Positions 39,861 through 42,214 of a DNA stretch of 64,000 nucleotides are shown piece by piece (position 1 is the stretch's first letter; each line of letters opens with the position of its first letter). The notes under the pieces are model-generated. The model made no database searches. It was not told the origin of the DNA and saw only the letters and a list, made by a program, of their open reading frames with translations. The stretch is from positions 1 through 64,000 of the forward strand of contig NZ_CP116942.1 of the NCBI RefSeq assembly GCF_028532485.1. Reading direction: 5' to 3'. Position numbers and translations under genes: made by a program. The stretch is from Iamia majanohamensis (GTDB lineage: Bacteria; Actinomycetota; Acidimicrobiia; Acidimicrobiales; Iamiaceae).

Positions 39861-39984
39861 GTTCCTGCGACGCTGAGCCGGCAGGACCGCTGGCGCGCGT
39901 CGCAGGTTCGTGGGAGTCCGGTGGGCTGCCGGTTCCTGCGACGCCGAGCCGGCAGGACCGCTGACCACCGTCGCAGGTCGTGGG
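39861..39984. repeat. paired hairpin repeat (family A)
   Basis: Two near-identical units of 53-54 bases (39861-39914, 39932-39984) separated by 17 bases. Each has perfect 9-bp arms CCTGCGACG and CGTCGCAGG around a 25-base loop, with loop core GAGCCGGCAGGACCGCTG conserved. TCCTGC in the left arm can instead pair with GCAGGA in the loop, so two folds compete. It lies just after the stop side of the reductase-like gene (stop at 39986). Confidence 0.8.
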
Positions 39985-39985
39985 G

Positions 39986-41041
39986 TCAGCGGCGTGGGGG
40001 GACGGTGGCGGAGTAGACGGGGAGGTCGAGCATCGTCTTCACGCCCGGGTCGGCCGCCACCACGTGGGGGATGGCGTTGACCACGTGCATGGCGGTGGCC
40101 AGGCAGCCGGCGTGGTTGTGGTCGCCCTTGTCCGAGGAGAGGCCCAGCTCCAGCTGCAGGTGGGGCTCGCCCTCGACGAGGATCCGGTACCCCGCGCCCT
40201 GGGGCCAGTCGGGCGCGTCGTCGTCGCGCAGCCGGGTGACGTGCTCGACGACGACCCGCTCCTCGCCCCCGGCGATGCCCACGATCTCGAAGCGCATGGC
40301 CGAGATGGTGCCGGCCTCGACGGTGCCGGAGGCGATCTCGATGTCCTCCGGGGCGGTGATGACCTCGTGGCGCTCGACGACCTCGTCGAGCTCGAGGCCG
40401 ATGGCTGCCGCCACGAGCTCGAGCACCGGGCCCCACGCCAGGGCGGTGGACCCCTGGGCCAGGAGCAGCGAGTGGCTGGGATCGGGCTTCCCGAAGCCCA
40501 TGATCTCGAACATGGTGAACGGGTTGTCCCAGGTGGCGTAGTTGACGATCTCCATCATCCGCACCGTGCGCACCTCCTTGCAGAGGGCCAGGGCGTGGAC
40601 GGTGATGCCGGCGTTGCCGAAGCCGGGGTCGATGCCCGAGGTGTAGAAGCTGCTGCCGCCCTCCTGGCAGGCGGCCTCGAGGCGGTCGTAGACGCCCTCG
40701 CCCGCGGCCTTCGGGTAGAGCAGGGGCACGAACGAGGTGTTCACCACGTCCTTGCCGGCGGCGAGCATGCGGCACAGGTCGTCGACCACCGCGTCGGGCC
40801 GGATGTCGGAGCTGGCGGTGTAGCAGATGGCCTGGGCGTCGGAGGCGAGGAGGGCCTCGGCGTCCTGGGTCGCGCTGACCCCGAGGGCGGGGCCGCCGCA
40901 GAGGTCGCCGACGTCGCGGCCGGCCTTCTCGTCGGAGTGGACCCACAGCCCGGCCAGCTCCAGGTCGGGGTGGGCGGCGATGGCGGGGGCGGCGTGGATG
41001 CCCACGGTGCCCGTCGCCCACTGGATCACGCGGATGGCCAT
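39986..41041 (-). CDS. dihydrodipicolinate-reductase-like NAD(P)H-dependent protein
   Basis: A 351-residue protein with an N-terminal Rossmann fold (RVIQWATGTVGIHAAPAIAA, GxxG pattern), LAGLWVHS, and the SSDIRPDAVVDDL and VVNTSFVPLLYP segments seen in the DapB-N-like family now called NAD(P)H-dependent amine-dehydrogenase-like. The C-terminal half contains the conserved GIDPGFGNAGI and WDNPFTMFEIMGFG. Members occur in mycobacterial and Acidimicrobiia catabolic clusters; the substrate is unknown. ATG 41041 is chosen because upstream in-frame codons run through the KstR-type operator. It is divergent from the LLM oxidoreductase. Confidence 0.8.
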   Translation of the reverse strand: MAIRVIQWATGTVGIHAAPAIAAHPDLELAGLWVHSDEKAGRDVGDLCGGPALGVSATQDAEALLASDAQAICYTASSDIRPDAVVDDLCRMLAAGKDVVNTSFVPLLYPKAAGEGVYDRLEAACQEGGSSFYTSGIDPGFGNAGITVHALALCKEVRTVRMMEIVNYATWDNPFTMFEIMGFGKPDPSHSLLLAQGSTALAWGPVLELVAAAIGLELDEVVERHEVITAPEDIEIASGTVEAGTISAMRFEIVGIAGGEERVVVEHVTRLRDDDAPDWPQGAGYRILVEGEPHLQLELGLSSDKGDHNHAGCLATAMHVVNAIPHVVAADPGVKTMLDLPVYSATVPPRR

Positions 41042-41084: not shown

Positions 41085-41098
41085 TAGAACACGTTCTA
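41085..41098. promoter_or_regulatory. KstR-type operator in a divergent promoter
   Basis: TAGAACACGTTCTA is a perfect palindrome around AC and matches the mycobacterial KstR pattern TnnAACnnGTTnnA at every fixed position. It lies in the 101-base gap between the two divergent genes, 43 bases upstream of one start codon and 44 from the other. KstR is the TetR repressor of cholesterol and lipid catabolism genes. Confidence 0.7.
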
Positions 41099-41142: not shown

Positions 41143-42078
41143 ATGGCCCACCCCCGACGCTTCCGCTTCGCCACCGAGGTCCACCAGCCGTTCCCCGGCA
41201 TGGGCTGGCTCGACACCGCCCGGGAGGTCGAGGCGCTCGGCTACTCGACGGTGTTCGTCCCCGACCACCTCGACGAGGGCCCCGGCCCCATCGCCGCCCT
41301 GGCCGCCTTCGCCTCGGTCACCACCACCCTGAACGTCGGCGCCCTGGTGCTCGACTGCGACTTCCGCCACCCGGCGGTGCTGGCCCGCGAGCTGGCCACC
41401 GTCGACGCCCTGTCCGAGGGGCGCCTCGAGGTCGGCCTGGGCGCGGGGTGGAAGGCCCTCGACTACGAGCGCTCCGGCATCCCCATGGACCGCCCTGGAG
41501 TGCGGGTCAGCCGCCTCATCGAGCACGCCGCGGTGCTGCGGGGCCTCTGGGGCGAGGGCCCCTTCTCCTTCGCCGGCGACCACTACACGATCACCGACAT
41601 GGACGGGACGCCCGCCCCCCACCGGCCCGGCGGCCCGCCGATCCTGGTCGGCGGCGGCGCGCCCCGACTGCTGCGCTGGGCCGGGTCGGCCGCCGACATC
41701 GTGGGGGTCAACGCCTCCATCCACTCCGGGGAGATCGACCAGGACGCAGCCGACGACGCCATGGCCGAGCGCATCGACGAGAAGGTCGGCTGGGTGCGCG
41801 AGGGGGCGGGCGACCGCTTCGCCGACCTCGAGCTCAACGCCTGGCTGGCCGCGGCCGAGATCTCCGAGGACCCCACGCTGCCGGGCGCCATGGCCGAGCT
41901 GTTCGGCACCGACGAGGCCTCGTTCCGGGCCAGCCCCCTCGCCCTGGTCGGCGCCCCGGGCGAGGTGGCCGAGGCCCTCCACGCGCGGCGCGAGCGGTGG
42001 GGCTACTCGTACCACGTGATCCCCGCCGACAAGGCCCACGACTTCGCCCCCACGGTGGCCGCCCTCACCGGCACCTGA
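41143..42078 (+). CDS. LLM-class F420- or FMN-dependent oxidoreductase
   Basis: A 311-residue (beta/alpha)8-barrel flavin enzyme of the luciferase-like monooxygenase family. Family elements include AREVEALGYSTVFVPDHL, LNVGALVLDCDFRHP, ALSEGRLEVGLGAGW, the GGPPILVGGGAPRLLR segment (phosphate binding) and a C-terminal GYSYHVIP. Actinobacterial members of this subgroup usually use coenzyme F420, but cofactor and substrate cannot be proved from the sequence. Divergent from the reductase-like gene, sharing the KstR-type operator. An 18-base C tract and a paired hairpin repeat follow its stop. Confidence 0.88.
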   Translation: MAHPRRFRFATEVHQPFPGMGWLDTAREVEALGYSTVFVPDHLDEGPGPIAALAAFASVTTTLNVGALVLDCDFRHPAVLARELATVDALSEGRLEVGLGAGWKALDYERSGIPMDRPGVRVSRLIEHAAVLRGLWGEGPFSFAGDHYTITDMDGTPAPHRPGGPPILVGGGAPRLLRWAGSAADIVGVNASIHSGEIDQDAADDAMAERIDEKVGWVREGAGDRFADLELNAWLAAAEISEDPTLPGAMAELFGTDEASFRASPLALVGAPGEVAEALHARRERWGYSYHVIPADKAHDFAPTVAALTGT

Positions 42079-42082
42079 CCGT

Positions 42083-42100
42083 CCCCCCCCCCCCCCCCCC
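42083..42100. repeat. 18-base C homopolymer
   Basis: A run of 18 cytosines four bases after the LLM gene stop, outside any coding region. Long homopolymers are error-prone, so the exact length needs read support. Confidence 0.9.
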
Positions 42101-42102
42101 GG

Positions 42103-42214
42103 GAAGTGGCACGCGATCACGACGAGATGTGGGGCCGAACGTGTGCCAGTACGCCGTTATCACCGAAGTGGCACGCGATCACGACGGGATGTGGGCGCGA
42201 ACGCGTGCCAGTAC
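42103..42214. repeat. paired hairpin repeat (family B)
   Basis: Two 50-base units (42103-42152 and 42165-42214) with four differences, separated by 12 bases. Each has 9-base arms TGGCACGCG and CGCGTGCCA (unit 1 has CGTGTGCCA, keeping a G-U pair) around a 24-base loop. They start GAAGTGGCACGCGATCACGA. Same architecture as family A at 39.9 kb but unrelated in sequence. Confidence 0.8.

Follow-up and report, generated by a model that had tools for sequence, protein, structure and literature searches.

The window analysed here comprises the first 64 kb of the single 4.58-Mb contig (C1 of genome G000, completeness 99.44%) of Iamia majanohamensis. It holds a perfect palindrome in the divergent promoter between the genes of a DapB-like reductase and an F420-dependent LLM-class oxidoreductase (Table 1), the edges of the palindrome lying 43 bp from the ATG of the former (start 41041, to the left) and 44 bp from that of the latter (start 41143, to the right). 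Both arms are identical to those of TAGAAC(N2)GTTCTA, the 14-bp palindrome reported for the M. tuberculosis kstR promoter and also in mycobacteria and Nocardia farcinica (available text of PMC1995591), and the initial annotation of a perfect KstR-type operator in this promoter is therefore upheld. The site is the sole match to TnnAACnnGTTnnA in the window, where 0.03 would be expected, and gives the one window match of the degenerate motif TNNAACNNGTTNNA, which was matched at least once in 3 of 100 shuffles. Pfam and NCBIfam matches agree with the naming of the two flanking genes. The LLM protein scored 282.7 bits on TIGR03621 (cut-off 213.15), and the reductase has a DapB_N match (5e-4) under the Pfam cut-off. 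The ligase, SDR and thiolase genes that had been noted nearby are present at 43.1–47.1 kb. They lie 2–6 kb away with no second motif match in the window to indicate membership, and a local ligase/SDR/thiolase cluster under the window operator was dropped.

Table 1. Positions of the putative operator, its gene pair, the two repressors and the genes linked to operators elsewhere on contig C1.
Feature	Site	Gene coordinates	Strand	Basis
Putative KstR-type operator TAGAACACGTTCTA, perfect 14-bp palindrome, divergent promoter	41085–41098		none	
DapB-like / 2,4-diaminopentanoate dehydrogenase-type reductase		39986–41041	-	Pfam DAP_DH_C 4.8e-18
F420-dependent LLM-class oxidoreductase		41143–42078	+	Pfam Bac_luciferase 1.1e-38; NCBIfam TIGR03621
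KstR-family TetR repressor A		3505173–3505778 (model match 3505188–3505733)	-	NF033703 155.5 bits, full length
KstR-family TetR repressor B		3534434–3534976 (model match)	+	NF033703 139.9 bits, full length
ABC ATPase	1028796			
Amidohydrolase	2816032 (near-match)			
Protein without Pfam match	2880735			
LLM protein behind site	2886123 (imperfect)			
SDR and LLM protein	2929482 (near-match)			
P450-like protein and patatin	3410894			P450-like protein below cut-offs
Rv3520c-family LLM oxidoreductase	3483126 (one mismatch)			475 bits, cut-off 335
KshA-like Rieske protein, divergent	3483126 (one mismatch)			KshA_C 3.8e-37; best PDB hits KshA 3e-38
Two ChsH2-OB proteins, then lipid-transfer protein, thiolase-domain protein, SDR	3490628			
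FadD4-like ligase	3500331			513 bits, cut-off 850
fadE-kstR(A) and wax ester synthase	3507025			
Rv3169-family protein and APH-family protein	3513004			
Acyl-CoA synthetase and second ChsH2-OB/PRK07937 set	3541749			PRK07798 752 bits, cut-off 543
Branched-chain-amino-acid-type ABC importer run	3555427	3549788–3555310		
Another acyl-CoA synthetase	3556244			PRK07798 729 bits
Crotonase and acetoacetate-decarboxylase-like protein	3559259			Crotonase, PRK07799 374 bits, cut-off 316
Branched-chain-amino-acid-type ABC importer run led by two acyl-CoA dehydrogenase genes	3569431	3560103–3569401		
LLM-like protein, third PRK07798 behind it, CaiB-type CoA transferase	3573343			LLM-like protein below all cut-offs
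Double acyl-CoA dehydrogenase	3581267			Weak IpdE2 similarity, 136 of 450 bits

Across the genome the arm-complete word AGAACNNGTTCT occurred exactly 18 times and its reversed control not once, whereas 0.40 occurrences are predicted at the base composition shared by the window and the island described below (Poisson p 7e-24). For 17 of the 18 sites the nearest gene start was 10–117 bp away. By our own gene calls, made with a simple in-house caller that missed some genes (e.g. the LLM-class gene of G133), 16 sites are intergenic, one (3500331) runs over the 3' end of the gene before it and lies 24 bp ahead of the next start, and one (4094880) falls inside a coding sequence among closely packed small genes. 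Thirteen sites are clustered in a 92-kb island at 3.490–3.582 Mb, and outward extension of the palindrome across the sites reads about AC(T/G)AGAAC-RY-GTTCT(A/C)GT. The arm-complete word replaced the degenerate motif TNNAACNNGTTNNA for genome-wide counting. The latter matched 14 places (reversed control, 3) and was dropped as a test at this scale, four of the weakest sites not being at promoters (three inside coding sequences, one without a called gene within 2 kb). When one mismatch was allowed, 73 places were found against 46 for controls, so that near-matches are mostly background and carry little weight alone; they were noted, not counted. Seven such sites with intact AAC/GTT cores were present in the stretches fetched. 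Five of them (2816032, 2929482, 3483126, 3493302 and 3555524) lie 12–214 bp ahead of gene starts, 2816032 and 3493302 overlapping the end of a neighbouring gene, and the other two (2887405 and 4093789) are not promoter-like.

The TetR_N profile gave 51 matches in the genome, and the search for a KstR homologue yielded two, repressors A and B, the next listed match of this genome on NF033703 being 51 bits. The best solved-structure match of A and B is M. tuberculosis KstR (1.5e-30 and 3.1e-27), followed by 3bjb, a probable TetR regulator (5e-27 and 8e-22), with the next at 3e-8 and 3e-10. The helix-turn-helix of A, GGYDAVQMR..VALGTIYRYFSSKDHLL, shows few changes from GGYEAVQMR..VAVGTLYRYFPSKVHLL of M. 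tuberculosis KstR, and B carries VALATIYRNF where A has VALGTIYRYF. By full-length similarity and a KstR-like helix-turn-helix, both are KstR-type TetR proteins in the broad sense. The NF033703 cut-off of 280 bits was reached by neither of them, nor by any of the 148 genomes of the order among the best 20 or fewer candidates per genome. A midpoint-rooted tree was built from 116 of 122 rows after removal of identical sequences, with several long branches uncertain. A grouped weakly (92/55) with G046, G005, G095, G101, G133 and two rows from named MAGs, while B fell in a starred clade (100/96) with Aquihabitans sp. G128 (Iamiaceae), two MAG rows, G133, G140, G091, G061 and G058. Neither belongs to the Nocardiaceae KstR clade. 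The Nocardiaceae and other actinobacterial rows stand together elsewhere, the nearest Acidimicrobiales to them being family f19 (G140, G019, G072 and G108) with a Microthrixaceae MAG (100/97). Given scores below the cut-off and a place outside the Nocardiaceae clade, A and B are regarded as KstR-family paralogues and not as strict KstR; they probably work like KstR nonetheless.

An operator lies ahead of both repressor transcription units. Gene A is preceded by an acyl-CoA dehydrogenase-like gene (fadE) that overlaps it by a few bases and has the operator 3507025 in its promoter. Tandem operators at 3530633 and 3530681, 48 bp apart, head a gene run ending in kstR(B), which is preceded by three genes, the first and third of them acyl-CoA dehydrogenase-like. 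The position of these sites is consistent with autoregulation.

Further operators stand at the promoters of many lipid genes (Table 1), in line with the lipid part of the regulon first proposed. At 3490628 the lipid-transfer protein matched PRK07937 with 543 bits (cut-off 419) and the thiolase-domain protein PRK08313 with 693 bits (cut-off 514). The crotonase at 3559259 scored 351 bits on the EchA19 model, under its cut-off of 400, and the KshA-like Rieske protein 66 of 600 bits on the 4beta-methylsterol monooxygenase model. A second KshA_C-domain protein (3580338–3581213) adjoins the operator at 3581267, with no Rieske match in the called gene. Five LLM-class genes lie at or behind exact or near-match operators (41143, 2885132, 2930293, 3482026 and 3572162, the last below all cut-offs). 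In M. tuberculosis, Rv0940c and Rv0953c are LLM oxidoreductases and Rv3526 is kshA, and the PRK models matched by the targets correspond to Ltp3/Ltp4 and FadD17/19. The operator-linked genes resemble the side-chain block of the mycobacterial KstR regulon, and they would suit a pathway that activates branched side chains and shortens them.

A general fatty or branched-chain acid regulon, in which the two repressors respond to ordinary or methyl-branched acyl-CoAs rather than to sterol derivatives, would account for the two branched-chain-amino-acid-type ABC importer operons and the ABC ATPase behind operators, as well as for the linked wax ester synthase and CaiB-type CoA transferase. It is less easily reconciled with the lipid-transfer thiolase-, ChsH2-, EchA19-, Rv3520c- and KshA-like genes that are also operator-linked, because ltp2-4, echA19 and the motifs at Rv3520c/Rv3521 and Rv3525c/Rv3526 are part of the mycobacterial KstR regulon as given in the available text of PMC1995591; we consider it possible but rather unlikely. 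The same source assigns fadE26-29, fadE34, fadD17, fadD19, mce4, hsaC and hsaD to the M. tuberculosis regulon and places further motifs at Rv3515c/Rv3516, Rv0940c and Rv0953c.

Enzymes of steroid ring degradation were sought in the same genome. The best HsaD match reached 82 bits over part of the model only, whereas the full model gave 267–345 bits in six of the 148 order genomes, five of them with KstR (best 15 or fewer candidates per genome). At that level HsaD was missing from 43 of the 48 KstR-bearing genomes, four of which have weaker long hits of 109–114 bits among the same number of candidates. The HsaC-type domain BphC_D1 gave a weak match at 4470033 (32.9 bits, Pfam cut-off 27) against 57.8–73.5 bits in all six HsaD-bearing genomes; among the 11 chosen genomes searched it was not found in G133, G101, G095 and G046. 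HsaC and HsaD lie within about 250 bp of each other in four genomes, 5 kb apart in G140 and on separate contigs in G069. These six genomes serve as positive controls for the HsaD and HsaC-domain searches, and relative genomes may be incomplete. Neighbouring HsaC/HsaD-type genes were located on C141 of G091, C43 of G124, C13 of G061 and C22 of G119, with the G140 pair on its C1; in G119 no candidate reached 105 bits on the KstR model. The genome under study has two full-length FAD_binding_2 proteins only, one L-aspartate oxidase-like and one succinate/fumarate dehydrogenase-like, so neither is a KstD candidate. Its one mce operon, at 2304–2310 kb, has no exact operator of the kind expected for an mce4 importer under KstR; a one-mismatch word lies at 2301906, 2.3 kb before it.

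These results bear on whether the operators mark a classical KstR regulon, with full cholesterol catabolism by the 9,10-seco pathway and ring enzymes too diverged to recognise. The KshA-like Rieske protein behind the near-match 3483126 and the second KshA_C protein would suit such a pathway, as would the CoA ligase, EchA19-like, lipid-transfer thiolase-like and ChsH2-like genes; set against the HsaD and BphC_D1 scores of the six control genomes and the want of a KstD candidate, it appears improbable. With the HsaC, HsaD and KstD partners undetected in this genome, the pathway under its control is probably a side-chain (ring-sparing) or non-classical one and not the standard 9,10-seco route. 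Of the original proposal of a KstR-like regulon for steroid or lipid breakdown, the steroid part thus finds only half its support, in the genes of side-chain type, whereas the searches turned up no HsaD, no KstD and no strong HsaC-type domain.

The association between operator and repressor was then followed in relatives. Among 80 KstR loci from named records, 30 were assigned to Acidimicrobiales by title and similarity, an assignment that includes L114 and L120 despite titles from other phyla and leaves likely Acidimicrobiales (e.g. L136) among the other 50. Exact AGAACNNGTTCT sites numbered 57 in 44 loci and reversed controls none, with 18 sites in 12 of the 30 assigned loci and 39 in 32 of the 50 others. 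The other 18 assigned loci have no exact site in the flanks fetched, and the link between operator and KstR is therefore not valid for every KstR-like clade; in some of these the operator may be a different word or stand elsewhere. The distance from the operator to the matched part of the kstR gene that follows it is about 100–275 bp in Nocardia, Rhodococcus and Dietzia. In L107, L108, L109, L111, L113 and L114 it lies 1.2–1.3 kb before kstR, ahead of a fadE relative, and in Aquihabitans sp. G128 tandem operators 46 bp apart precede a first gene that is 87% identical to that of the present genome.

Gene content behind the operators also recurs. Fifty relative loci were compared (the 30 assigned loci and 20 more), with best hits of at least 40% identity over 60% of the query, for which 7 of 48 operator-first genes had none, and with the one-mismatch target 3493302 left out of the list for the present genome. 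Of 41 operator-first genes in relatives, 27 had a best hit here that was itself operator-first; for other genes the proportion was 45 of 155 (p 2e-5). The 27 agreeing pairs involve 11 of the 29 operator-first genes of this genome and are non-independent, seven of them being the fadE before kstR(A).

On the scale of the order, 48 of 148 genomes have a gene scoring 105 bits or higher on the KstR model, and 16 of the 48 have two such genes (best 20 or fewer candidates per genome). The pattern TNGAACNNGTTCNA proved too loose for use across the order and gave way to AGAACNNGTTCT. Motif excess was compared in 145 genomes, 48 with and 97 without KstR, the intermediate scorers G127, G025 and G141 being left out. 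The mean number of AGAACNNGTTCT sites was 6.8 (controls 2.3) in genomes with KstR and 3.7 (controls 3.1) in those without, and the excess was greater with KstR (one-sided Mann–Whitney p 5e-6, uncorrected for relatedness). Were the palindrome a chance occurrence or the site of an unrelated regulator, a motif excess of at least 5 in 15 of the 97 genomes without a KstR hit and the 18 assigned loci lacking a nearby exact site would be unsurprising. Such a reading has to contend with 18 sites against no controls, 17 of them at promoter positions, with a site ahead of both repressor transcription units and with the recurrence of operator–gene pairs, and is very improbable. An excess of at least 6 without KstR of at least 105 bits was seen in G024, G100, G105, G050, G042, G134, G098, G092, G082, G057, G052 and G040, perhaps through missed repressors or another regulator.

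The explanation we favour, and hold to be likely, is a KstR-type regulon in which A and/or B would act on the palindrome, be lifted by a side-chain CoA thioester and thereby derepress lipid genes. What the sequence shows directly are the operators and where they lie, the two repressors and the families of the linked genes; binding, repression, ligand and substrate are deduced from these as follows. One or both repressors would bind AGAACnnGTTCT as dimers beside the promoter and block transcription, and the block would be lifted by a CoA thioester that arises when a sterol-like (branched isoprenoid) side chain begins to be broken down. The derepressed genes would then provide ABC import, activation through CoA ligases, beta-oxidation through acyl-CoA dehydrogenases and EchA19- and ChsH2-like proteins, and cleavage by lipid-transfer thiolase-like proteins. 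Redox steps may fall to the F420-type LLM oxidoreductases, the P450-like protein, the KshA-like Rieske protein and the SDR/ADH enzymes.

The ligand of KstR is a CoA thioester of the steroid side chain. The present system shares the palindrome TAGAACnnGTTCTA with mycobacterial KstR (Rv3574/MSMEG_6042) and with Nocardia and Rhodococcus. Its repressors belong to the same TetR family as mycobacterial KstR and have a helix-turn-helix much like it, and here too a repressor gene, under its own operator, adjoins an acyl-CoA dehydrogenase gene. Acyl-CoA dehydrogenases, CoA ligases, EchA19, lipid-transfer thiolases and Rv3520c are targets in common. The number of sites is also similar, the 18 exact sites here comparing with 16 further motif instances in M. 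tuberculosis and 31 in M. smegmatis (available text of PMC1995591), where dimeric DNA binding and repression have been reported for mycobacterial KstR. In contrast to the divergent arrangement described there for mycobacteria, fadE here is upstream of kstR(A) in the same orientation. The present regulon further differs in having two repressor paralogues outside the Nocardiaceae KstR clade, in the absence from our searches of HsaC, HsaD and KstD and of an exact operator at the mce operon, and in having operators ahead of ABC importer genes and of several LLM oxidoreductase genes. KstR2, the second TetR regulator of cholesterol catabolism, has HIP-CoA as effector and a different word as operator. 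It resembles the present repressors as a TetR repressor of lipid/steroid acyl-CoA metabolism. Unlike them, it governs the genes for HIP, the last two rings (PMC5380842, available text).

The regulon would be one of the Acidimicrobiales, probably of the Iamiaceae. More tentatively, many Acidimicrobiales might use a KstR-type switch on ring-sparing shortening of sterol, hopanoid or isoprenoid side chains, with F420 LLM oxidoreductases and branched-chain-amino-acid-type ABC importers, while HsaC/HsaD ring cleavage would be confined to some lineages and the ancestral task of KstR would be side-chain sensing and not ring catabolism; this is a conjecture that we hold possible without favouring it. 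KstR is familiar chiefly as the switch for cholesterol in mycobacteria and rhodococci. A KstR-type regulon with many members and paired repressors, in an order represented largely by MAGs, points to an older and more widespread switch. Separation of a side-chain regulon from the ring-cleavage pathway, the two being usually seen together, makes what KstR evolved to sense testable, and the operators offer handles for finding the substrates of unassigned F420-dependent oxidoreductases and ABC importers. No open-access paper was found with both KstR and Acidimicrobi-, an absence made weak by the open-access scope, and none of the open-access matches listed paired KstR with Iamia, Microthrix, Aquihabitans or Ilumatobacter. 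The available main-text portions of PMC4810484 and PMC5790920 hold no word beginning Acidimicrob.

At the window locus, a repressor dimer on the palindrome would most likely shut both divergent promoters, the DapB-like reductase and the LLM oxidoreductase forming an outlying divergent pair of the regulon. Orthologues of the DapB-like gene (at least 72% identity) are present in seven other genomes of the order. In G133, of the same family and another genus, the orthologue is 81% identical and CTAGAACAGGTTCTAG begins 41 bp upstream of it (58 bp in the window genome), in a promoter otherwise unlike that of the window; its divergent neighbour is an LLM-class gene 28% identical to the window's (1.4e-18). 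The other six have no site within 330 bp upstream, and the DapB-like/operator/LLM arrangement thus has two observed occurrences, both inside the family and none outside it. An 18-C run at 42083–42100 lies directly 3' of the LLM gene, followed by an intergenic repeat with inverted ends (TGGCACGC...GTGCCA) at 42107–42148 and 42169–42210, the starts 62 bp apart, of which three similar copies occur in locus L068 (at 2867, 3929 and 3991). Another intergenic repeat with inverted ends (CCTGCGACG...CGTCGCAGG) is found at 39864–39906 and 39935–39977, its starts 71 bp apart.
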